Source: Spirosoma oryzae (lineage in GTDB: Bacteria > Bacteroidota > Bacteroidia > Cytophagales > Spirosomataceae). Taken from it: a stretch of 64,000 bases of DNA. The stretch lies in the NCBI RefSeq assembly GCF_003002825.1, contig NZ_PVTE01000003.1, positions 62,001-126,000 on the forward strand, written 5' to 3'. Below are positions 1,423 through 33,677 of the stretch, piece by piece. The translations under genes were made by a program, and so were the position numbers. The first letter of the stretch is position 1. Each line of letters begins with the position of its first letter. The notes below the pieces were generated by a model. The model had not been told where the DNA came from. It was given only the letters and a program-made list of their open reading frames with translations, and did no database searches.

Positions 1423-2631
1423 ATGGCAACAGTGCTCATCATTGGAGCAGGCGGTGTCGGTAGTGTTGTGGCGCACAAATGCGCCATGAACAGCGACGTA
1501 TTTACCAACATCATTCTGGCAAGTCGCACGAAAGCAAAGTGCGACCGCATTGCCGCCGAAATTAAGGAATTACACGGCGTTACGATTCAGACGGCGCAGG
1601 TCGATGCCGACGTCGTGTCGGAGACGGTAGCCCTGATTCGGTCGTGCAACCCCAAACTCGTTATCAACGTTGCCCTTCCCTACCAGGATCTGCCGATCAT
1701 GGACGCCTGTCTGGAAGCCGGTGTTCATTACATGGACACGGCCAACTACGAGCCCAAAGACGTTGCCAAATTTGAGTACAGCTGGCAGTGGGCGTACAGG
1801 GAGCGCTTTGAACAGGCGGGTCTGATGGCTCTGCTCGGCTGCGGCTTCGACCCCGGCGCGACGCAGGTGTTTACGGCCTACGCCAACAAGCACTACTTCG
1901 ACCGGATGGACTACCTCGACATCGTCGATTGTAACGCCGGTAACCACGGAAAGGCATTCGCCACCAACTTCAACCCCGAGATCAACATCCGCGAGATTAC
2001 GCAGCCAGGTCGTTACTGGGAAAACGGCGAGTGGGTGGAGATTCCGGCGATGAGCATCCACAAACCGATTGAATATCCCGAAATCGGTCCCCGTGAGTCG
2101 TACGTACTATACCACGAAGAGCTGGAGTCACTGGTGAAAAACTTCCCGACGCTCAAGCGCGCCCGCTTCTGGATGACCTTCGGACAGGCCTACCTGACTC
2201 ACCTGGAAGTACTGCAAAACGTCGGGATGACCCGCATCGATTCGGTGAAGTTTCAGGGAATGGACATCGTCCCGCTCGAATTCCTGAAAGCGGTGTTACC
2301 TGCCCCCGATTCGCTGGGTGAAAACTACACCGGCCAAACCAGCATCGGCTGTCAGATCAAGGGCATCAAGGACGGTGCCGACCGGACCTACTACATCTGG
2401 AACAACTGCGACCACGCGGAAACCTACAAAGAAGTACGCGGACAGGCCGTTAGCTACACGACGGGCGTGCCGGCCATGATCGGTGCCATGCTGATGCTGA
2501 CCGGTGTCTGGATGAAACCCGGCGTCTGGAACTGCGAAGAACTAGACCCCGATCCGTTTATCGAGCAGATGAACAAGCAGGGGCTACCCGTTCAGGAGCG
2601 TGTCGACGTTCCGCTGCCGCACGAATACTAA
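1423..2631 (+). CDS. Carboxynorspermidine dehydrogenase (saccharopine dehydrogenase-like)
   Basis: 402 aa. Reductively condenses aspartate semialdehyde with diaminopropane or putrescine to carboxynorspermidine or carboxyspermidine, using NADPH, in the cytoplasm. The N-terminus has a Rossmann dinucleotide loop (GAGGVG, residues 8-13) and the body follows the saccharopine dehydrogenase fold; the full length matches the CANSDH branch and not fungal saccharopine reductase. The residues GCGFDPG after the Rossmann half are typical of this family. The partner decarboxylase (nspC) is in the same window at 24222 but not in the same operon. The gene is monocistronic in appearance, with a -7 box 32 bases upstream. 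Confidence 0.9.
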   Translation: MATVLIIGAGGVGSVVAHKCAMNSDVFTNIILASRTKAKCDRIAAEIKELHGVTIQTAQVDADVVSETVALIRSCNPKLVINVALPYQDLPIMDACLEAGVHYMDTANYEPKDVAKFEYSWQWAYRERFEQAGLMALLGCGFDPGATQVFTAYANKHYFDRMDYLDIVDCNAGNHGKAFATNFNPEINIREITQPGRYWENGEWVEIPAMSIHKPIEYPEIGPRESYVLYHEELESLVKNFPTLKRARFWMTFGQAYLTHLEVLQNVGMTRIDSVKFQGMDIVPLEFLKAVLPAPDSLGENYTGQTSIGCQIKGIKDGADRTYYIWNNCDHAETYKEVRGQAVSYTTGVPAMIGAMLMLTGVWMKPGVWNCEELDPDPFIEQMNKQGLPVQERVDVPLPHEY

Positions 2632-2642
2632 ATAATCTGAAA

Positions 2643-2707
2643 TTCATCGGTAGCAGCTGTTTTTTTACGACTTTTAGCCGTCGTCTAAATTGACTGCTAC
2701 CGATGAA
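2643..2707 (+). promoter_or_regulatory. Inverted repeat that buries the start codon at 2703
   Basis: TTCATCGGTAGCAG (2643-2656) is perfectly complementary to CTGCTACCGATGAA (2694-2707), a 14-bp stem; a smaller ACGAC/GTCGT stem lies in the loop. The ATG at 2703 is inside the right arm. It could terminate the upstream transcript or hide the start of the next gene. Confidence 0.6.
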
Positions 2708-3061
2708 AACTATTCTCATTCTAAGTCTCGTCATCAGCCTCCCCGGCCTCGCTCAAAAAACAGATTCCCTGCGGACATCTTCCGCGCAACCGAAGCGAAC
2801 GGATTATGTCATCAGTCAGCAGGAACGGCAGCAGATGGTCGATATGGCAGCCGGTCCGGCAGCGGGGGTAGGCAACGTCAATCATCGCTACCAGGGTTAG
2901 TTCACGACAAGAATCTACTGTCAGCGCTGACCGACGACCCGTCGACGCAACTGCCGGCCAACGTTCTTGACGACCTGCGGAAGCGCACCGTCGATACAGA
3001 GGCCCAGGCTGTCAAGCTGGTCAATGATTTTGACAGTAGCGGAGCAGCATCATCTAACTAA
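2703..3061 (+). pseudogene. Small secreted protein split by a -1 frameshift
   Basis: The frame beginning at ATG 2703 encodes a clear signal peptide (MKTILILSLVISLPGLAQ) and stops at TAG 2898-2900 after 65 codons. The -1 frame, open from before 2703, makes poor protein at first but becomes plausible from about 2900 (LLSALTDDPSTQLPANVLDD, then a helical charged stretch) and stops at 3061. Joining the signal-peptide frame to the second frame gives about 119 residues of coherent sequence. The shift falls between a GGGGG run near 2862-2867 and the TAG. It could be a true pseudogene, a sequencing error in the G run, or recoding. No function is recognised; the neighbour at 3101 is also secreted. Confidence 0.6.
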
Positions 3062-5099: not shown

Positions 5100-5265
5100 T
5101 GAACCGGTTGTTGCGTGCATCATGATAGCCGCGTCGGGAAATAGTGTCGAAACGAGTCGGTCGGTGTTAGCGAAAGTACGAAACAAAACGGCTTATGAAG
5201 TACCGGCCTTACCTGCCGAAACTGACTATAAATCGCTAAAAAAGAACCCATCACGCCACTATTCC

Positions 5266-5844
5266 TCAGAATCGGTAGCTGATGCCCATACCCAGCATGG
5301 AACTTATGCCGGCGGCACCAAGGCTAGCGACCCGAAACCGGCCATCAACACCCCAATCCGGAGAAAATAACCATTCGTATTCAGCAGTCAGATGCCAGCC
5401 CGTATTCACTTCACGCCACGAACGCCGATCAATCGCCACGTTGTCCAGACCGATTCGGGTAGCCCCCCTATAGATGTCGTCCCGGCGGTACCAGGCCGAT
5501 AAACCACCCCCCAGTCGCAGGGCATGACTGGCGCTGGGCAACAGATCGGCTAGCACCGTCACGTCGGCCGTGAGTCGGGTGCGTCGGTTATCCCCCGGAT
5601 CGAATCCGTTAAAAGGCTGGTTGGTCGTCGCAAGGCGCATATAGCCGGCTTCGGCGGTGAACAGTAACCGGTCCTGACGAAAGTGTCTGGCAAAGCGGCC
5701 AACGTAGCGGGGGCCAACCGCGTCTGGTGCGTCAAGTGAGGTCAGATCGACACCCAGGCGAACGGAGTTGCGGCCCATCTGCGCCTGCGCCCGAAGTGAA
5801 CCTGCCAGCAGCAACGCGGTGTACAGGAAGAGAAAACGATTCAT
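5266..5844 (-). CDS. Outer-membrane beta-barrel-like secreted protein
   Basis: 192 aa with a signal peptide (MNRFLFLYTALLLAGSLRAQ, cut near residue 20-22). The rest is amphipathic beta-strand with aromatic girdle residues and ends in S-Y-R-F, an aromatic C-terminus typical of proteins inserted by the BAM complex. Size fits an eight-stranded barrel. No known family recognised. It lies 12 bases downstream of a lipoprotein gene on the same strand, so the two probably share a transcript and may be partners in the outer membrane. Confidence 0.75.
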   Translation of the reverse strand: MNRFLFLYTALLLAGSLRAQAQMGRNSVRLGVDLTSLDAPDAVGPRYVGRFARHFRQDRLLFTAEAGYMRLATTNQPFNGFDPGDNRRTRLTADVTVLADLLPSASHALRLGGGLSAWYRRDDIYRGATRIGLDNVAIDRRSWREVNTGWHLTAEYEWLFSPDWGVDGRFRVASLGAAGISSMLGMGISYRF

Positions 5845-5856
5845 ACGGCTAGCTTC

Positions 5857-25439: not shown

Positions 25440-25478
25440 GCGCCCTGTCAGTAAGTCTGACAGGGCGCTCGTTCTTAC
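25440..25478 (-). terminator. RT-gene terminator and left copy of the island direct repeat
   Basis: GCGCCCTGTCA (25440-25450) and TGACAGGGCGC (25458-25468) form a perfect 11-bp hairpin with a 7-nt loop, just past the RT stop codon (25475-25477), with T-rich tail on the minus strand. The same 38 nt with only two differences recurs at 34022-34059 in the same orientation. Confidence 0.85.
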
Positions 25479-26962
25479 AGCACATCCCACCAATCCGTCG
25501 ATAAATTCGTATCCTTCGGAGGCTGATTGATTTGACCATTAGTTGACGGTTCCTGCCTAGGCAGTTCACCTGCCGACTCGACAGCGGGCAGCATCAGTCT
25601 TTTGACCGTCTCTACGAGCCGCTTTCCCTGTTCTGGCTTCACCATAGCGACAAAATTGGCGTAACCCAATACGGTATTCTGAATCTGGCCTTTACCCCAC
25701 GTTTTGCCTTGCCATCCCGACTGTTCAATCTGATGCAGCAAGGCCCGAAACTTCCGAAGCGTAGTCCGGTCGATGCCTAGCTGGTCATTCACAACCAGAC
25801 CCGTCACACGTTGCTGACTTCCCTTGCGCATCACCTGCAGTTTGTCCGGGTGCAGCACAAAACCCTCCCCGTCGATCACTTGCCTGATCGACCAGAGCAG
25901 TTGCCCCACGCGCCCGGCCGCTTCGTCCGATGCAGAAAAGGTTAAATCATCAGCGTAGCGCGTGTATATATAGCCGAATTTATTCGCAACACCCCGTAAC
26001 CGATGGTCAAGGCGGTAGGCGATCATATTGGTCAGGGCAGGGCTGGTCGGTGCCCCCTGTGGCAATACACGACTTCCCTTGGCAACGTAGTACGTTTTGC
26101 CATCAAGCTCGATCATGTCGCTGTCAGGTTCCGTACAAAGCAGCGCCAGGATGGTCGCTATAGTTTCGGCATACCCAATCATCACGAACAACCCTTTGAC
26201 CCGCCGGTAGCTGATACTGGGAAAAAAGTTTTTTAAGTCCAGGTTCACCACCACGTCCTTGCCTGTGTGTGGCTGCGCATTGGTTACGATGGATCGATCG
26301 ATCGTAAAGCCGTGCGCGTGTTCTGTGGGCTGAATTTTTCGAAGAATGTGCTCCAGAATCCAGTACTGGACCGTCTTCAGATACGGCATCGGTGCCGAAA
26401 TCAAACGTTTACCACCCGATTTTTTGAGCAGGTAGAACCGCTTGTAGTGCGACACCGTCGACACCGGACGATCATACGCCAGAAAGCGCAACCGGCTAAG
26501 CGTTACACCGACTGCCTGAGCCAGCGCCAGCGGGCTGTCGAAATCCGGAAGGCCAAACCGGCGCAGTTGGTCGTTGTTGGCCGTTCCTGATTGTAAACCA
26601 CCGGAGACGTTTTCGCCCAGGTAAACAATCGTCTGCTCCTGCTGCCGTTTCCACTGCGCGGCCCGTTCCTGGCGTTTTTGCTCGTTGCGTTGCTTCGTTT
26701 CCTGCTGCTTCCGTTTGGATTCGGCCATACGGGTTTTCCGCATCTCGGCCAGCATGGCTTTCCGATTTTCGTACCGGCGCTGCTTCTCCAGTAATTCGTT
26801 CAGCTCTCGTTGAAGCTGGCCCTGCCGTTCGATGAGTTGCTCCGGCAGACCGGGCATATCGGTCGTCGGCTCCCAGAAACCAAGCCGTTTCATCTCGGCT
26901 AGCACAAACGAATCTTTTGAACCCAGCCCACGGATTCGGTCATAAATTTCCTGACGAGTCAT
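25475..26962 (-). CDS. Retron reverse transcriptase (type XIII-like)
   Basis: 495 aa from ATG 26962; the frame is open upstream but without typical protein sequence. Residues about 1-40 form a small helical start, 41-115 a highly charged coiled coil (long Q/E/K/R run), and about 150-470 the RT domain. Motifs: K-R-L-I-S-A-P (about 185-191), the retron signature NAQPH (228-232, NAxxH), the catalytic aspartate block NLDLKNFFPSI (240-250), QGAPTSPAL (302-310), YADD (336-339) and VTG (386-388), the retron-specific motif of the msr-binding region. It copies the msd part of the adjacent ncRNA into DNA that stays attached to RNA. The ncRNA lies 61 bases upstream. Lack of a maturase domain argues against a group II intron. 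The coiled-coil extension is unusual for simple retron RTs. Confidence 0.95.
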   Translation of the reverse strand: MTRQEIYDRIRGLGSKDSFVLAEMKRLGFWEPTTDMPGLPEQLIERQGQLQRELNELLEKQRRYENRKAMLAEMRKTRMAESKRKQQETKQRNEQKRQERAAQWKRQQEQTIVYLGENVSGGLQSGTANNDQLRRFGLPDFDSPLALAQAVGVTLSRLRFLAYDRPVSTVSHYKRFYLLKKSGGKRLISAPMPYLKTVQYWILEHILRKIQPTEHAHGFTIDRSIVTNAQPHTGKDVVVNLDLKNFFPSISYRRVKGLFVMIGYAETIATILALLCTEPDSDMIELDGKTYYVAKGSRVLPQGAPTSPALTNMIAYRLDHRLRGVANKFGYIYTRYADDLTFSASDEAAGRVGQLLWSIRQVIDGEGFVLHPDKLQVMRKGSQQRVTGLVVNDQLGIDRTTLRKFRALLHQIEQSGWQGKTWGKGQIQNTVLGYANFVAMVKPEQGKRLVETVKRLMLPAVESAGELPRQEPSTNGQINQPPKDTNLSTDWWDVL

Positions 26963-27022: not shown

Positions 27023-27262
27023 CAAAAACAGTCAGACACGGCCTTCGAACAATCTCAGGATTACGTCAATCCACTCCCGGGGGGCCGTACTAGGGGCACC
27101 TTTTAGTCCGCAGGAGTCGTACCGAAAAGGTGCCCCTAGTACGAAGCCCCCCACAGTAACGATTGCACGTAATGATGCGTGTGAAGTCAGTTGGCACGAA
27201 CGACGAAACATCGTTCTTTTCCCGAAGGAAACGCAAGGTCTTTTGCGTGCCTGACCGTTTTG
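27023..27262 (-). ncRNA. Retron msr-msd non-coding RNA
   Basis: Read on the minus strand from 27262 to 27023, by eye. a1 (27262-27246) and a2 (27040-27023) pair over 17 bp with two G-U pairs and one bulge, closing the RNA. Inside a1 come three small hairpins of the msr: CGCAA/TTGCG (27247-27232), TTTCC-TTCG-GGAAA (27231-27218, a UUCG tetraloop), and GAACGATG-TTT-CGTCGTTC (27216-27198), an 8-bp stem with a UUU triloop like that recognised by the Ec86 RT. The msd part is a 26-bp stem: arms 27152-27146 plus 27143-27125 and 27104-27086 plus 27085-27079, 2-nt bulge, 20-nt loop. A basal 12-bp stem (27173-27161 with 27071-27060) supports it. The branching G is not obvious; no AGC follows a1. Promoter at 27276-27306. 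Confidence 0.88.
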
Positions 27263-27275
27263 CTACTTGATTCCA

Positions 27276-27306
27276 CAAATTTATACCGAACTGGTTACTC
27301 TGCAAA
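27276..27306 (-). promoter_or_regulatory. Consensus promoter for the retron ncRNA
   Basis: On the minus strand TTTG (27306-27303), exactly 19 bases, then TAAATTTG (27283-27276), a perfect match to the Bacteroidota consensus TTTG-N19-TAnnTTTG. Transcription should begin near 27270, just before a1 at 27262. It lies in the gap between the SWIM gene and the ncRNA, so the RNA and RT can be made apart from the upstream genes. Confidence 0.85.
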
Positions 27307-27365: not shown

Positions 27366-29009
27366 CTACGTCAGTTGGTTTCGATAGGCGATCCGTAGCG
27401 CCAGCATATGCTCACAAGGCCCTTTGTGAAGCTTGTTCTGCTGATAAAAACCACAATCACAGCTGCCTTTTACCTGTCGTTCGTCGGCATCGATTACCAG
27501 GCTGGGGTTATATGTCCGGCTTTCGGTTTTGACGGCACCCATCAGGCGGACCCCTTCTGATTCGGCGGTCGCTGTGACCTGAACCGCCTTGTCGTCGAAC
27601 AACTGGTGCGCAGTGGCTTCACGCGGGTTGTCAAACCGCAGCTGCGCCATCGGTAGTGGGGCCTGCGTCAGTTCCCGAACCCGGTAAACCCCCTGCTGTA
27701 AATCGAAAATGGCCCGCCCCGCCTGTGTATAGGCTCCGAGTGCGCCCAGTACGACTTTCGTGTCCAACCCCATTCGTTTAGCCAGCGCTTCGGGCTTTTC
27801 GTACCAATTTTGCTTGAGCGTCTCGAATATCAGTTGGGCCGTAGCTGGCGGCACGTCGGCACGCGGGGCCATCAGGTCAAAATTACCCAGCCGCGACCAA
27901 TCGTTGGCCGACCAGCCTGAAAGGCCAAGCGTAAAGCTCATATCACCCAGATCGGCTACATAAAATGAGGGCAAACCCGACCCCAGCAGGTGAACCGTGA
28001 ACCGGCGACTCACCGGAATCAATCGCTCCAGAATAAGCAATCGGCGACGGCCCCAAATCCGAATTTCCCTGGCCGCAGTCCCCTCGTAAACAGACCGGCT
28101 ACAGACCAGTTCTTTGCCCCAGGGGTCAAACACCAGTTTGATCGGTTTGCCGGGCGTGAGTTGGAATCGGATGGACCTTGGCCCTGTTTTTTCCTTGAAC
28201 CGACGCAGCAGCGAGCAAATACCGTACACATCCATCGGATGCAATTCGAGCGTCGTTGCCGGCAGCGTCATAGCCGAACTTACCTGTAGGAATCCACGCA
28301 CCCAGCTATCGGGCAGATCGATTTTTACTTCTTTATACGCGTCTTCATCAGTTGTCTGCACGTCGAAGCCACTGGGATCGATCTTGAAATCGGTTTCTTT
28401 ATAGTCGCGAATTTTCTGAAACTCGTTGTAAAGCGCTGACGAGTAATCAATATTGGTGGTACCGCAGGCGTATTCGCTGATATGCTTGAATACATTGTAG
28501 TTGGCCGACAGTTTTCCGTATGACGATTCATCCTGCGAGAAACATTCGAAAAACACCTCGTCGGGATGTACAGTGATAACGGGGTCCAGCACAAACCAGG
28601 CATCCCGATCGCGTTCGTAGAGGTATTTGTAGTAGCGTTGCCGTGCCTCGTAAAACGGTTTCATAACCCGATCCTGATCGCGGTACAACGACGCCAGTTC
28701 TGTCTTAACCTTAGCAATTCGTTCTTTCCCGTCATCGATCTGCTGATCGGCCATAAATTCCGAGAGCCAGATCGCTTCCTGCTGTGCGGCCCATTCCTTA
28801 TAGGCGGTCTTGTCGCGCGGAACGAAGCGCATATCCGATACGACGACATCGTGCAAGGCCGAAATAGCTTCCCGAAATGCCAGTTTCCGATGCAGTTTCC
28901 CAACAAAAAATGTAGGACTCCGATTAACGTCGGGGGCGAACGACATACCCAACGAGTTGGCGTTACTGACTACGGATGTGCTGCCACCGAATTTATAGTT
29001 GAAGCGCAT
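27366..29009 (-). CDS. Winged-helix plus SWIM zinc-finger protein (retron XIII WHSWIM)
   Basis: 547 aa, cytoplasmic. Residues about 1-400 are a mixed alpha/beta region with a positively charged middle (WGRRRLLILERLIPVSRRF); about 400-460 is a winged helix (ATAQLIFETLKQNWYEKPEALAKR... then a wing), and the last 35 residues hold a SWIM zinc finger, C517-x-C519 ... C532-x-H534 (the order CDCG ... PCEH). SWIM domains bind nucleic acid or protein. RT, ARM and WH-SWIM genes together define what I know as retron type XIII, where this is expected to be part of the toxic effector or its regulator. It is 13 bases downstream of the WGR-propeller gene and followed by the ncRNA, all on the minus strand. 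Confidence 0.88.
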   Translation of the reverse strand: MRFNYKFGGSTSVVSNANSLGMSFAPDVNRSPTFFVGKLHRKLAFREAISALHDVVVSDMRFVPRDKTAYKEWAAQQEAIWLSEFMADQQIDDGKERIAKVKTELASLYRDQDRVMKPFYEARQRYYKYLYERDRDAWFVLDPVITVHPDEVFFECFSQDESSYGKLSANYNVFKHISEYACGTTNIDYSSALYNEFQKIRDYKETDFKIDPSGFDVQTTDEDAYKEVKIDLPDSWVRGFLQVSSAMTLPATTLELHPMDVYGICSLLRRFKEKTGPRSIRFQLTPGKPIKLVFDPWGKELVCSRSVYEGTAAREIRIWGRRRLLILERLIPVSRRFTVHLLGSGLPSFYVADLGDMSFTLGLSGWSANDWSRLGNFDLMAPRADVPPATAQLIFETLKQNWYEKPEALAKRMGLDTKVVLGALGAYTQAGRAIFDLQQGVYRVRELTQAPLPMAQLRFDNPREATAHQLFDDKAVQVTATAESEGVRLMGAVKTESRTYNPSLVIDADERQVKGSCDCGFYQQNKLHKGPCEHMLALRIAYRNQLT

Positions 29010-29022
29010 GGTTTGTCTAAAA

Positions 29023-30462
29023 TCAGTTGGGCGTATATTTCAGAATATTACCGAATACACGGTAGAAGCCACCCTGCGCGGCTTCCTTCAATTCGTCAAC
29101 AACATAGGTTGTGTTTTCCTGGCGAAGGTTCCTAGGGAACTGAACGTGCCAGTCGGCATGAAAGCCTTCCGAGATTGGCCTTACCCGTAGTTTTCCGCCC
29201 TCCTTCACACAGCGTACCCGTATACCGCTTGTGTCGGCGGTTGTTTCCAGAACAGCGGTATCGGTCGACGTGATAGCCGCCGACAGCTCAGTAGCGGCAA
29301 TTTTAACATCCTTCACCGCCGGTGTAATTCCGTTTTGGGCGTCGGTAATCGCTTCCTGTCGGGCATCGATACAAGCTAGTAAGCCATCTGTAGTTACGAT
29401 ATAGAGTCGTTCATTAAAATACTGCATCGACAGGGCCGATCCACAGCCCGTAGCTAACTTCCAGAGTCGGTTTCCAGCCGCATCGAAACAGTAAATAGCG
29501 GAATAGTTGTCGCCGGCAAATACAAAATCGCCATTGGGCGACGTGGCGCACGAATACACGACGGCGTCGGTTCGGTAATTTCGCAGGTGCTCACCCGTCT
29601 TCGTAAACGCCTGCACCAGATTTCTGACGGTAGCCGCGTAAAGTTTGTCGCTTTCAGCCCAGCCAAAGAGAACTGACCCTTCCGTAGCTACTTTCCACTC
29701 GAATTGCCCGTCAGGCCCATTGTAACAAACGATTCCGGCCGAATCACCACAGAAAATCTTACCCCGATCATCACAACGAATCATCCAGGCGGATTTACCA
29801 TCCTGCTGTTTATTCCACTGTTCCTCGTCCTCGTAGTTGATGATCGTTGCTTTACCGGTTGCATCCGATACACCCAACAAACCATCGTTGATGTCGAGCC
29901 AGTATATTTCAATGTTGTCATTGATTTCGTACGACAGACGCGGCCGTTTACCGGTCAAATCGTAGACGTTCCCATCGTCGCAGCCGACGTAGATCCACTC
30001 ATTATCAGCGACAATGCATTTAACTCCGTCGGGCAGCCGGTAGTGTAAGCCAACATCACCATCGTGATTCAGTCGAAATACGTCGCCCCGTTGGTTACCG
30101 GCCCAGCAGTTTTGCTCGTTTACATAGATACCAAAAGCGGCAGAGCCCGTATTGAACCGCCAGAGGATGGGCAGGCTTTGCTTTACGGCAGCCGGCTTAC
30201 TCTCTACGGCACGCCTGGTAACACCCCGTTTTTGACGCTGCCCCTGAACAGCCAGTGCATAGCCTTTCTTTTGTTTTTCCTTGATTTTCTTTTCGGCAAA
30301 TTTTGTCGCTTCGGCGGCATCACCGAATGAGTTTGTCTGGCTTTGTCCATGATCGCCAATCCGTCCGAAGCGAATGGTCACGGCCGTTTCTTCAACCGTG
30401 ACTTCATAAAATTTATGCGCAGCTCCCTGATCTTCCGAGAGTTCCAAATAATTTTTCAACAT
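29023..30462 (-). CDS. WGR domain plus beta-propeller protein of the retron operon
   Basis: 479 aa, no export signal. Residues about 1-80 form a WGR domain (KFYEVTVEETAVTIRFGRIG ... QKKGYALAV), the nucleic-acid-binding domain first known from PARPs. About 105-390 is a beta-propeller of WD/PQQ type with repeated blades (GNVYDLTG, GIVCYNGPDG, GLLACIDAR). A C-terminal module of about 70 residues (GGKLRVRPISEGFHADWHVQFPR, then YVVDELKE) ends the protein; I do not recognise it but it looks conserved and charged. It sits between the ARM gene (30-base gap upstream) and the SWIM gene (13-base gap). I do not recall this gene as part of the minimal type XIII definition, so it may be an added component. 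Confidence 0.85.
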   Translation of the reverse strand: MLKNYLELSEDQGAAHKFYEVTVEETAVTIRFGRIGDHGQSQTNSFGDAAEATKFAEKKIKEKQKKGYALAVQGQRQKRGVTRRAVESKPAAVKQSLPILWRFNTGSAAFGIYVNEQNCWAGNQRGDVFRLNHDGDVGLHYRLPDGVKCIVADNEWIYVGCDDGNVYDLTGKRPRLSYEINDNIEIYWLDINDGLLGVSDATGKATIINYEDEEQWNKQQDGKSAWMIRCDDRGKIFCGDSAGIVCYNGPDGQFEWKVATEGSVLFGWAESDKLYAATVRNLVQAFTKTGEHLRNYRTDAVVYSCATSPNGDFVFAGDNYSAIYCFDAAGNRLWKLATGCGSALSMQYFNERLYIVTTDGLLACIDARQEAITDAQNGITPAVKDVKIAATELSAAITSTDTAVLETTADTSGIRVRCVKEGGKLRVRPISEGFHADWHVQFPRNLRQENTTYVVDELKEAAQGGFYRVFGNILKYTPN

Positions 30463-30491: not shown

Positions 30492-33400
30492 TTACCGAAT
30501 TTCCAGTTGATGCTGTCGAATCGGCAAGGGTAACTCGTTGAATTGTTGCTGCAAATCCCGCATAATCTGGATGCAGCTGGCTTTGTCGCCAATGGCAGCT
30601 GTAGCCGACACGTCGGTCAGTATCCGGGCAACAAAGCGGGCATTATCTTCCGATTTAAGCCCCTCCTGCCGGAGAAAGGCGAAGACGCGGGTTTTGGCCG
30701 TTCGGCTCTGTTGGACGCGCAGCAACACCGACCGAAAGTAGAAAGCAAGCGCTTTAAGACGATCGGGCTGGTCAGTCGCATATCGCTCCAGGTAGTTGGT
30801 CGTGAATACCTGAACGGCGGCCGCTGGGTGCTGACTTAATTTGAGCAGGAATTCCGGCCCGTCGGCATCCGTGAAGAAGTGGGTAATCAGTTCACGCCCA
30901 AACGCCTGAACATCGGGTCGTACCGAATCCGCAATACCGATCAGCGTTTCTGGTGTCCAGTCGGTTTCGGTAAACGCATGGCGGAAAAAGGCCATAGCGG
31001 CCTGTCGGGTATCTTCCCAGGTAGCATCCAGCAGTCGGATCGCTTCATCGCGCTCGTAGCGGATACGCGCCACATTCTGCCGGAAGTAGTTCCAGCACCA
31101 CTGCCTGATGGCCAGCAGTTCGTGGTTACCCAGGGCGATGATTTGCCGAATGGTAAGATCGTGCGGGTTCTGGTAGCGGTCCAGCATAAACAGGCCCAGT
31201 TCCTGCGCTGGCCGAAAATGAGCATAGACCAACCGCAGCGTTGTCGCCCGATCGAGTTTAGCGACCGAAGTCACCAGCGGACCACGCAATACCATGGCCA
31301 GTTCGTCGTGTATGCCCTCGGCCACTTCTTTTCGAATCAGCGCATGCACCAACAGCTCGGTCAGTTCATCAGCGTACGTCGCGTCGGTTGTCAGACCTGA
31401 CACCATACCCGCATACAGCTGTTGCCCGGCCAGGCGTACGTCGGCATAGGCACTAGTAAGTAGTGCCCCCAGGACCGACGCAGAAGGTTGACTGTTTTTC
31501 AAAATCAGCAGCCTGACCGCAAACGCCTGAATGGATGCTACGGGCAGTTGCAGTAATTCAGCCACGACCTGCTGACTGAGCAACGGAAGCGCATCGGCGG
31601 TGTACCGAAGTAGGCTTTGCGTCGCATCGCCGATGAGCGCATTGGTTTCAGCCGTATTGTCGGTCAGGGTGTGCAGCCTGGCCACTGCCCGTCCAATCAG
31701 CACTTGTTGCTGCGTAGCCGTCAACGTTACGTTGGCGAGCAGGCGATTCATCCAGCGTCTCAATTCGTCATGGGGGGAAAAAAGCATCGCCACGACAAAG
31801 CCAGAATCATCGACAAAGGGTTGGCTGTTCTGTTCGATCCATTCCTGCCCCAGTTTGCGTACATCAGCAAAGGGGCTATTCAACAAAAGAAGCACCAACG
31901 AACGATCCGCTCCGTGTGGCAGCCGTTTACGCAGTAGCTCGACGCCCCACCGCGCCGGAATTTCGAACGTCGAAGTCAGCAGTTGCCGCAGTAACTGATC
32001 GTCTATTTTTTCATCAATTGCTGGGTAAGCCGCGTGTTGACACAGGTTCTGATAAGCAAACGCATGGACTTCGTCGACTCGTGCCCGTAGTAGCAGTTGG
32101 ACATACGCCTGCGGCATCTGATCCCAGAGTTCCGGGAAATACTCGTCACGAACCGAAGGGGCTGGCGTGTCTGCGTGTTCAGGAGTCGTGTCTGTCGCCT
32201 GTTTACCTAGTAACTGTGAAAAACGGCTAAGCAGACTGGCGAATAAGCCCCCTTCCATCGGTTTGACAGCCTGTTGCGCATCTAACTGAACCTGAGTGTC
32301 GTATGGAACCAATTCACGGTAATGCCACAACCCCATGTAGTCGATTTCCAGCTTATCATTTCCGCCGTACAAAATCCAGTTCAGCAGGTAAGCGTTGTTG
32401 TAGGCCGGGTACTGACGAGTATACAGTATACTTCGCTGCTGTGCCTGATCCCACTTGTACGTAATCTCGCTGTGTGGTGGTCGGTAGTCGGTGGCTTTGT
32501 CGTACGACAGCAGTATAGCCGTTGCCAGTCGTACGTAGTCGACGCTTTTCTGTTTGCCAAACTGGATCAACGTCCGGAACAGCCGTTTCCGCAGATAACT
32601 GCGGGTTCGGTTAGAATACGCCAGCCGGCTCTCCGGCTTACGGAGCTCCGCCCTTATGCGAACGCGCTGCCCCAAAGCCGCGATATAGATCGATGGGTCG
32701 TTGCTATCCTCGTCGTAGTGATAATAGGCCGGCTTGCGGAAGAAAGACGTGGTGCGCTCGAAACGATAGGCCAGTAAACCCTGAACCTCGAAGTCGTCGC
32801 GCAACTCCGCCATTTTTAGTATGTGCCGAACATGCCGGAACCAGCCCGGCTTCAGCGGAATAGTTCGCAGCACGTTCAGCAACGGCGCCCGGATAATCGG
32901 CTTATTCAACGTCAACGTGTACAAGTCTTCCAGCATGGAATAGTCCGGTTGACTTTGGTTCTGCACGCTATCCGCCAGTAACGTGGTCAGCGTCGCAACA
33001 TCGGGCTCGGCAAGAGCCTGCTGAACCGACGGCGGTAACCGACTTTCAATGCGTTGCGTGTGCGCCCATAATTCGTCGTCTTTCAATACGTGCAGCAACG
33101 CTTCGCCCGCCACGCGCCGGATTTTATCGGCATACTTCTGGTTTGAGAAATAGACCTGGAGCGTTCGGGCAGCCTGTGGATCAGCGCAACGCCCCAATGA
33201 CCAGAGGGCGGCATAACGCTGCATTTCGTCGCCCCGGTCGACCAGCCGAATCAGGAAGGGAACGGATTCAATGAGCCGAAGCTGTCCCGCCCGCCAAATC
33301 ACCCGCGACGGTTTCCAGGCCGTTCGGAACGCCGTTTGCCCACTGGCGAGTGCACTCAGTCGTTTCAGAATAGCCGCTTCACAGGTTTGTGGTTTCGAGT

Positions 33401-33677
33401 CATCGACTATGCCTGTCGGCATTGGCCGGAACACCTCATCTTCAGACTGATAGCCCTTTTTCCGCTTTTCGACTTCCAGGCTATTGAAGTAGTTTTCAGC
33501 AGCCAGCAGCGCTACAGGCTTGGGGGTTTTAGTCCCTTCTTTCAGCGTAGCCCCTCGTCGGCCGAAGCGAAAATTAACGACATATTGTTCAGAACCAACG
33601 TCACATAGATCGACCTCATACACCTTATCGGAATTACCTTCCTTGAAGTAGAGTTTAATTTGCTTGATCAATTTCAT
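30492..33677 (-). CDS. WGR domain plus HEAT/ARM-repeat protein (retron XIII ARM)
   Basis: 1061 aa, first gene of the operon. Residues about 1-85 are a WGR domain (LYFKEGNSDKVYEVDL, YVVNFRFGRRGATLKEGTKT, RKKGYQ). From about 110 to the end is an alpha-solenoid of HEAT/ARM-like helical pairs, with repeats such as RYAALWSLGRCADPQAARTL and PFADVRKLGQEWI recurring every 35-45 residues. A Pro/Thr-rich loop near 480-530 interrupts it. No enzymatic motif was seen. Together with the RT and WH-SWIM protein it matches retron type XIII, where the ARM protein is a named component. It may be a scaffold holding effector and msDNA. Two genes here carry WGR domains. Confidence 0.88.
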   Translation of the reverse strand: MKLIKQIKLYFKEGNSDKVYEVDLCDVGSEQYVVNFRFGRRGATLKEGTKTPKPVALLAAENYFNSLEVEKRKKGYQSEDEVFRPMPTGIVDDSKPQTCEAAILKRLSALASGQTAFRTAWKPSRVIWRAGQLRLIESVPFLIRLVDRGDEMQRYAALWSLGRCADPQAARTLQVYFSNQKYADKIRRVAGEALLHVLKDDELWAHTQRIESRLPPSVQQALAEPDVATLTTLLADSVQNQSQPDYSMLEDLYTLTLNKPIIRAPLLNVLRTIPLKPGWFRHVRHILKMAELRDDFEVQGLLAYRFERTTSFFRKPAYYHYDEDSNDPSIYIAALGQRVRIRAELRKPESRLAYSNRTRSYLRKRLFRTLIQFGKQKSVDYVRLATAILLSYDKATDYRPPHSEITYKWDQAQQRSILYTRQYPAYNNAYLLNWILYGGNDKLEIDYMGLWHYRELVPYDTQVQLDAQQAVKPMEGGLFASLLSRFSQLLGKQATDTTPEHADTPAPSVRDEYFPELWDQMPQAYVQLLLRARVDEVHAFAYQNLCQHAAYPAIDEKIDDQLLRQLLTSTFEIPARWGVELLRKRLPHGADRSLVLLLLNSPFADVRKLGQEWIEQNSQPFVDDSGFVVAMLFSPHDELRRWMNRLLANVTLTATQQQVLIGRAVARLHTLTDNTAETNALIGDATQSLLRYTADALPLLSQQVVAELLQLPVASIQAFAVRLLILKNSQPSASVLGALLTSAYADVRLAGQQLYAGMVSGLTTDATYADELTELLVHALIRKEVAEGIHDELAMVLRGPLVTSVAKLDRATTLRLVYAHFRPAQELGLFMLDRYQNPHDLTIRQIIALGNHELLAIRQWCWNYFRQNVARIRYERDEAIRLLDATWEDTRQAAMAFFRHAFTETDWTPETLIGIADSVRPDVQAFGRELITHFFTDADGPEFLLKLSQHPAAAVQVFTTNYLERYATDQPDRLKALAFYFRSVLLRVQQSRTAKTRVFAFLRQEGLKSEDNARFVARILTDVSATAAIGDKASCIQIMRDLQQQFNELPLPIRQHQLEIR

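Follow-up and report, generated by a model that had tools for sequence, protein, structure and literature searches.

A conserved RNA beside a type XIII retron reverse transcriptase in Spirosoma oryzae and its probable role as msr-msd template

The locus and its RNA

The window analysed here is the whole of a 64,000-nucleotide (nt) stretch of Spirosoma oryzae (GCF_003002825.1, NZ_PVTE01000003.1, positions 62,001-126,000 of the forward strand). On its minus strand lie, in this order, a WGR-HEAT gene, a WGR-propeller gene, a SWIM gene, a structured RNA (27262-27023) and a reverse transcriptase (RT) gene. Very probably this is a complete type XIII retron and the RNA is its msr-msd RNA, which would template the multicopy single-stranded DNA (msDNA). 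The RT belongs to the RT_XIII group and has SWIM and WGR/HEAT partners in the same operon; all of these match the PADLOC type XIII models, and the window has the WGR-propeller gene in addition. The type XIII class was reportedly defined by Mestre et al. 2020. An earlier reading of this DNA, referred to below as the original prediction, had placed a retron RNA between a SWIM gene and the RT, and this position is borne out by PADLOC, which names the two flanking genes SWIM_XIII and RT_XIII.

The RNA folded at -117.1 kcal/mol, compared with a mean of -73.6 kcal/mol (standard deviation 4.27) for 200 dinucleotide shuffles, none of which was as low (z -10.2). The stems listed in the original prediction were all present to within one or two base pairs (bp). 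The hairpin with the UUU loop has exactly the 8 bp claimed, the basal msd stem has the 12 bp claimed (7+5), and the long msd stem, given as 26 bp, forms 27 bp (8+19) with a 2-nt bulge followed by short tip pairs. The pairing of the a1 and a2 ends was also found, but not the exact count of 17 bp with one bulge: the minimum free energy fold contains 15 bp, and RNAduplex gave 16 contiguous pairs, three beyond a 1-nt bulge and four further out, with an energy of -28.0 kcal/mol for the outer part of a1 with its own a2. All three proposed msr hairpins (4-bp, 5-bp and UUU) appeared in the minimum free energy fold, but the first of them is not conserved.

RT searches, run at E 1e-90 in genomes, yielded 26 distinct loci including the window after removal of overlaps. 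The sources were a contig scan (8), the genomes of the window's family (12 of 222), a phylum sample (6 of 395) and a second family (7 of 299). Repeat retrievals were counted once (L001, L002, L011 and L013 are the window; L003, L012 and L025 are one locus, as are L004 and L019, L005 and L024, and L006 and L021; L014-L018, L020, L022, L023 and L026-L034 were retrieved again at greater length as L035-L051; L053-L056 and L058-L066 are repeats, and L057 is the RNA of L006). RNA segments located with CCTTGCA-like and TCGAAGG-like patterns in 22 loci made up alignment A1, from which L006 (contig end), L039, L050 and L051 were left out. A covariance model was built from a set of 20 sequences (A2) that excluded the window and its 93% relative.

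In 22 of the 26 type XIII loci the RNA immediately precedes the RT. In L006 the contig holds only some 160 nt upstream of the RT; the RNA was found at the end of another contig in the same genome (G469) with 200.8 bits. In L050 and L051, which belong to one genus, the RNA is divergent and lies on the far side of the SWIM gene, some 5 kb upstream of the RT; there the covariance model scored 35.7 bits (L050:7907-8132) and 30.0 bits (L051:4613-4838). For L039, no RNA was found in the 4.4 kb upstream of the RT, which is all that the contig offers; an apparent segment at this locus was rejected as chance, as it spans just 111 nt and the best model score there is 11.3 bits. The cyanobacterial locus L008 has two tandem RNA copies before one RT (5165-5412, 77.7 bits; 5646-5845, 133.3 bits).

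RNAalifold, given the 22 sequences and no structure, returned 46 pairs. Standard pairs fill 92.1% of 1009 cells compared with 72.9% in shuffled alignments, and changes on both sides were seen in 37 of the 46 pairs (25.3 when shuffled) and in 217 cells (72.3 when shuffled); none of 500 shuffles reached the observed pairing or both-side values. Extra pair types numbered 78 against 69.9 in shuffles, and 2 of the 500 shuffles equalled this. When the partners were slid along the alignment, pairing fell to 35-46%. The shuffle control makes no correction for kinship; the slid control does, while favouring a structure drawn from the same sequences. This bias is partly answered by the covariance model, from which the window had been held out and which scores it at full length with 170.5 bits (E 1.7e-35). 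The stems are thus conserved in homologous loci, the point on which the original prediction had been open to refutation. In the consensus, P3 (helix 2) is 99.4% paired with both-side changes in 6 of its 8 pairs, the basal msd stem (helix 3) is 96.4% paired with such changes in 8 of 10 pairs, and the long msd hairpin (helices 4-6) has them in 22 of 24 pairs. Extra ACU/AGU pairs (columns 92-94 with 178-180) showed no both-side changes and are uninformative.

The RNA also tracks the RT among genomes. Of the 222 genomes in the window's family, the model matched 12, and these are exactly the genomes that have the RT. In the second family, 5 of the 299 genomes gave a match; every one of them belongs to the 7 that carry the RT, and the other two RT genomes are those of L050 and L051. 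These genome-wide searches used stricter filters, which lose weak matches. For the two families pooled, the RNA was found in 17 of 19 genomes with the RT and in none of 502 without it. The RNA adjoining this RT gene has paired a1/a2 ends, msr hairpins and a long msd stem, and is conserved together with the RT.

Table 1. Features of the retron locus, in window coordinates
Feature	Position	Strand	Evidence
a1, outer part, 16 nt	27246..27261	-	RNAduplex with own a2
a1, inner part CCUU, pairs with AAGG 27042-27045	27235..27238	-	consensus helix 1
Priming (branch) G, proposed, in CUUGC	27234	-	conservation; Ec86 position
P2 hairpin UUUCC-UUCG-GGAAA	27218..27231	-	hairpin check across 22 loci
P3 hairpin, 8 bp, UUU loop, likely RT-binding element	27198..27216	-	consensus helix 2
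Basal msd stem, 5' strand	27161..27173	-	consensus helix 3
Basal msd stem, 3' strand	27060..27071	-	consensus helix 3
Long msd hairpin, 8+19 bp plus tip	27078..27153	-	consensus helices 4-6
TACYA motif, 5' arm of msd stem	27137..27141	-	18/22 loci
CRGU at msd tip, bulge in consensus fold	27121..27124	-	alignment columns
msDNA (cDNA), proposed, about 116 nt	27047..27162	+	inference
a2: inner AAGG 27045-27042, outer part 27040-27025	27025..27045	-	fold, RNAduplex, consensus
Reverse transcriptase, retron type XIII	25475..26962	-	PADLOC RT_XIII E 2.3e-184
SWIM zinc-finger protein, effector candidate	27366..29009	-	PADLOC SWIM_XIII E 2.4e-239; Pfam SWIM
WGR + beta-propeller protein, accessory gene	29023..30462	-	Pfam WGR 6.3e-19; PQQ_2
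WGR + HEAT-repeat protein, effector candidate	30492..33677	-	PADLOC WGR_XIII E 0, HEAT-ARM_XIII 1.3e-34
Promoter-like site TTTG-N19-TAAATTTG, ends about 14 nt before a1	27276..27306	-	pattern scan

Probable priming site, RT recognition and msd

The 4-bp hairpin GCAAAAGACCUUGC after a1 (27246-27233) was considered as a conserved structure and rejected, as the relatives do not support it. Local folding of the 19-nt stretch after a1 gave a hairpin in that register only in the window and L003, other registers in 10 of the 22 loci and no pair in another 10. Instead, CCUU in this stretch pairs with AAGG and extends a1/a2; it is paired in 98.9% of cells, with three pairs invariant and the outermost being C-G in 19 loci, U-A in two and unpaired in one. 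Immediately after this inner end of a1, a G is present in 22/22 loci of A1 and in four further copies found by the model. It sits in the motif CUUGC, which faces CGAAG, both in 22/22. Of the four further copies, L057 reads CCUUGC with CGAAGG, and the first one in L008 reads UCUUGC with CGAAGA, which adds a third U-A change. The original prediction had remarked that the usual AGC is not obvious after a1, which is correct, the motif there being CUUGC; its doubt whether the priming G differs in this type is partly resolved, since a conserved G is present, in CUUGC rather than AGC.

In Ec86 the primer G directly follows a1 and reverse transcription starts at a C, as described in excerpts of PMC6868368. 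By analogy, G27234 is likely the primer G and C27047 likely the first template base. The same source gives AGC as the usual priming context of retrons and lists CAGA and ACGC among the exceptions, and because such exceptions are on record we did not take AGC as defining retrons. From these assignments, the proposed msDNA would start opposite the conserved C and extend for about 116 nt. Its 3' end would presumably be near 27162, a placement made by likeness to the end of the Ec86 complementary DNA (cDNA).

A hairpin in the place of P2 has at least 4 bp in 14 of the 22 loci and 3 bp in one, and is absent in seven. The P3 loop reads NNU in all 22 loci (UUU in 11, GAU in 5, UAU in 4, CUU in 1 and GUU in 1). 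A fragment of the Ec86 RT binds an 8-bp UUU hairpin according to the same excerpts (PMC6868368), and by this analogy P3 is likely the RT-binding element. PMC11754653 describes mutation of the Eco1 (Ec86) RNA as least tolerated at the priming G and in the UUU hairpin, and as better tolerated in P2 and P4; the type XIII RNA has the same pattern of constraint, with P2 missing from 7/22 loci and the P4 stem drifting.

The long msd stem varies freely apart from TACYA in its 5' arm, which occurs in 18 of 22 loci and in 10 of 13 representatives less than 80% identical to one another, and starts 15-18 nt before the tip when anchored by the alignment. TACYA was the best among all 5-mers with one degenerate position. 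It was chosen after inspection, and the control allows for this: the best 5-mer in shuffled arms reached at most 10/22 and 7/13. Of the copies outside the alignment, those of L050 and L051 contain the motif, and L057 and the first L008 copy lack it. The msd tip is also conserved, with G in column 129 in 22/22 loci and C in column 127 and T in column 130 in 21/22, so that it keeps C-R-G-U and a small 5-bp hairpin.

Interpretation and alternatives

The conserved stems and the tracking of the RT gene support the original proposal that this RNA templates msDNA for the adjoining RT. Besides the type XIII retrons, Eco1 is the known system closest to this locus. The Ec86 RT is the solved chain closest to the window's RT by sequence (E 1.6e-45), and the RNAs have in common an 8-bp P3 with a UUU loop, a G after a1 and a start at C. 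A UUACUG near the cDNA 3' end is a feature that we take to be common to both. The covariance model, run on the 5.2-kb Ec86 locus, found as its best match the UUU hairpin, in the correct place and on the correct strand (only 11.0 bits, E 0.047). The Ec86 RNA sequence used for comparison has a match of at least 99% in 48 of 5426 E. coli genomes, and of 100% in each of the 5 matches listed. In contrast to Eco1, which has UAGC, the window has CUUGC, its msd is closed by a covarying basal stem, and it combines the conserved TACYA and tip with different effectors.

Several observations weigh against this interpretation. Outside P3, the model found no match to the Ec86 RNA. Most of the matched genomes had contributed to training the model, and the window and G025 had not, so the telling parts of the genome counts are the zeros and these two held-out cases. 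The specificity of a1 for its own a2 is uneven: in 8 of the 22 loci none of the 21 foreign a2 pairs as well as the own one, and in the other 14, including the window, at least one foreign a2 ties or wins. As good as the own a2 were one or two foreign a2 in 12 loci (two in the window), three in L008 and seven in L036, some of the ties being with close relatives. Mononucleotide shuffles equalled or beat the window's a2 in 2 of 200 cases, and shuffles matched the outer pairing often in L036 (34/200), L008 (22/200) and L010 (51/200). The counts for CUUGC and CGAAG arose partly by selection, since the segments had been cut on these motifs; the priming context is CUUGC and not the usual AGC; and L050 and L051 keep the G (UUUUGU; UUUGU for CUUGC) but without the facing CG. 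In addition, what the sequences show is the RNA, its covarying structure, its association with the RT and the genes around it; transcription, priming, cDNA synthesis and RT binding are inferred from other retrons, and the defensive role and the action of the effectors solely from other retron types.

The priming site is where another reading finds most room. The RNA could belong to the RT while the cDNA starts elsewhere, for instance by self-priming at the 3' end, with no 2'-5' branch at G27234. The lack of AGC after a1 and the loss of the facing CG in L050 and L051 fit such a start, and retron Sen1/Se72 is said to be without an apparent priming G in an excerpt of PMC6868368. However, both the G that follows inner a1 and the C opposite it are found in 22/22 loci, as priming at the junction predicts, and known retrons also use the ACGC and CAGA contexts (PMC6868368), so we consider a start elsewhere improbable. 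The RNA occupies the RT leader in 22 of the 26 loci, and this would also suit a structured regulatory RNA, or an attenuator of the RT mRNA, from which no DNA is copied. In two loci, however, it stands about 5 kb from the RT, ahead of the SWIM gene, and its paired a1/a2 ends, conserved G and long covarying hairpin follow the plan of a retron; we therefore regard such a regulatory RNA as very unlikely. Long near-perfect inverted repeats can be parts of transposons and Rfam offers only generic hairpins below its thresholds, but the fold energy relative to shuffles, an architecture that stays fixed, with compensatory changes, in Bacteroidota, in a cyanobacterium and in Sericytochromatia, the single copy that the model found in the window's genome and the absence from the 502 genomes without an RT match leave chance repeats or a remnant mobile element such as a miniature transposon with hardly any probability. 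Specifically, no Rfam match reached its gathering score anywhere in the window; the seven matches at a loose threshold, namely six of microRNA type (best E 5.5e-06), all short of their gathering scores, and one to C4 antisense RNA (E 7.6), were treated as generic hairpins.

Under the msr-msd interpretation, the RNA would be transcribed from a putative upstream promoter with, or just ahead of, the RT gene. The a1 and a2 ends would pair, and the inner CCUU/AAGG helix would set G27234 at the junction. The RT would bind the P3 hairpin with its NNU loop, like the Ec86 RT with its UUU hairpin, and the 2'-OH of G27234 would prime copying of the RNA from C27047 through the long hairpin. Copying would stop near the UUACU motif, and the DNA hairpin left linked to the RNA would be about 116 nt long. 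As long as it is undisturbed, the particle of RT and msDNA may keep the SWIM and WGR-HEAT proteins inactive, and here also the WGR-propeller protein; once a phage interferes with it, the effectors would harm the cell and the phage would be stopped.

TACYA and the tip would fall within the DNA product, which makes a DNA-reading protein a natural guess and not a result. As a speculation that we regard as possible and rather unlikely, type XIII msDNA primed by CUUGC, not AGC, could be a sequence-specific bait: an effector with a clamp-like domain and a SWIM finger would read TACYA/TRGTA and CRGU, and would be released when a phage alters or removes the site.

We searched the literature on type XIII retrons and found no account of their mechanism; PMC11953036 alone was found to name them, in a list of the defences of one strain. 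PADLOC is said in part of PMC9252829 to include covariance models of msr-msd RNAs. As a type XIII model may be among them, we do not claim a first description. In all, this is a well-supported msr-msd RNA whose retron type was already known; the analysis corrects its priming site and adds two conserved features of the msd. Type XIII has so far been named from its proteins. An RNA backed by covariance, with a proposed priming G, template start and cDNA, makes the type directly testable and provides a model for finding type XIII RNAs. Priming at CUUGC, if true, would extend the AGC rule by one more context, and the conserved motif within the DNA hairpin is a candidate for recognition by the effectors.

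Neighbouring genes and putative promoter

Retron RTs carry the specific motifs NAxxH and VTG together with YADD, and the window's RT has NAQPH at 229, YADD at 337 and VTG at 387 (numbered on the translation from 26965). Its runner-up PADLOC model was RT_other (E 2.2e-95). On the shared strand, 29 and 13 nt separate the WGR-HEAT, WGR-propeller and SWIM genes, and 104 nt lie between the SWIM gene and a1. The WGR-propeller protein matched propeller models in Pfam, of which PQQ_2 alone exceeds its cut-off, and matched PADLOC WGR_XIII weakly (E 1.2e-4). Homologues were found by tblastn in 7 of the 26 loci, with matched stretches of unequal length, and the gene is possibly a subtype marker. AlphaFold2 gave a weak model for the SWIM protein (mean predicted local distance difference test, pLDDT, 53.7), and the matches of this model to sliding clamps by Foldseek and VIA (residues 247-364) are only a lead towards a DNA-clamp-like domain in this protein; the model of the WGR-HEAT protein has a mean pLDDT of 72.7.

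The promoter-like site before a1 matches the Bacteroidota-type promoter consensus. The pattern has 2 matches in the 64 kb on both strands, one of them upstream of a1, compared with 0.46 expected, and at least 2 matches occurred in 9 of 100 shuffles. With the -7 spacer varied by 1, such a site was found in 7 of the 22 loci (the window, L003 and five more) and in a looser form in two; no promoter of this kind was found in the other 13, even in looser forms.

In L004, about 850 bases between the SWIM gene and the RNA (L004:4026-4880) were unmatched by the tblastn queries. In L046, the RT gene (1462-2828, minus strand) contains an in-frame TAG and its RNA is conserved; this is possibly a decaying copy or an assembly error.
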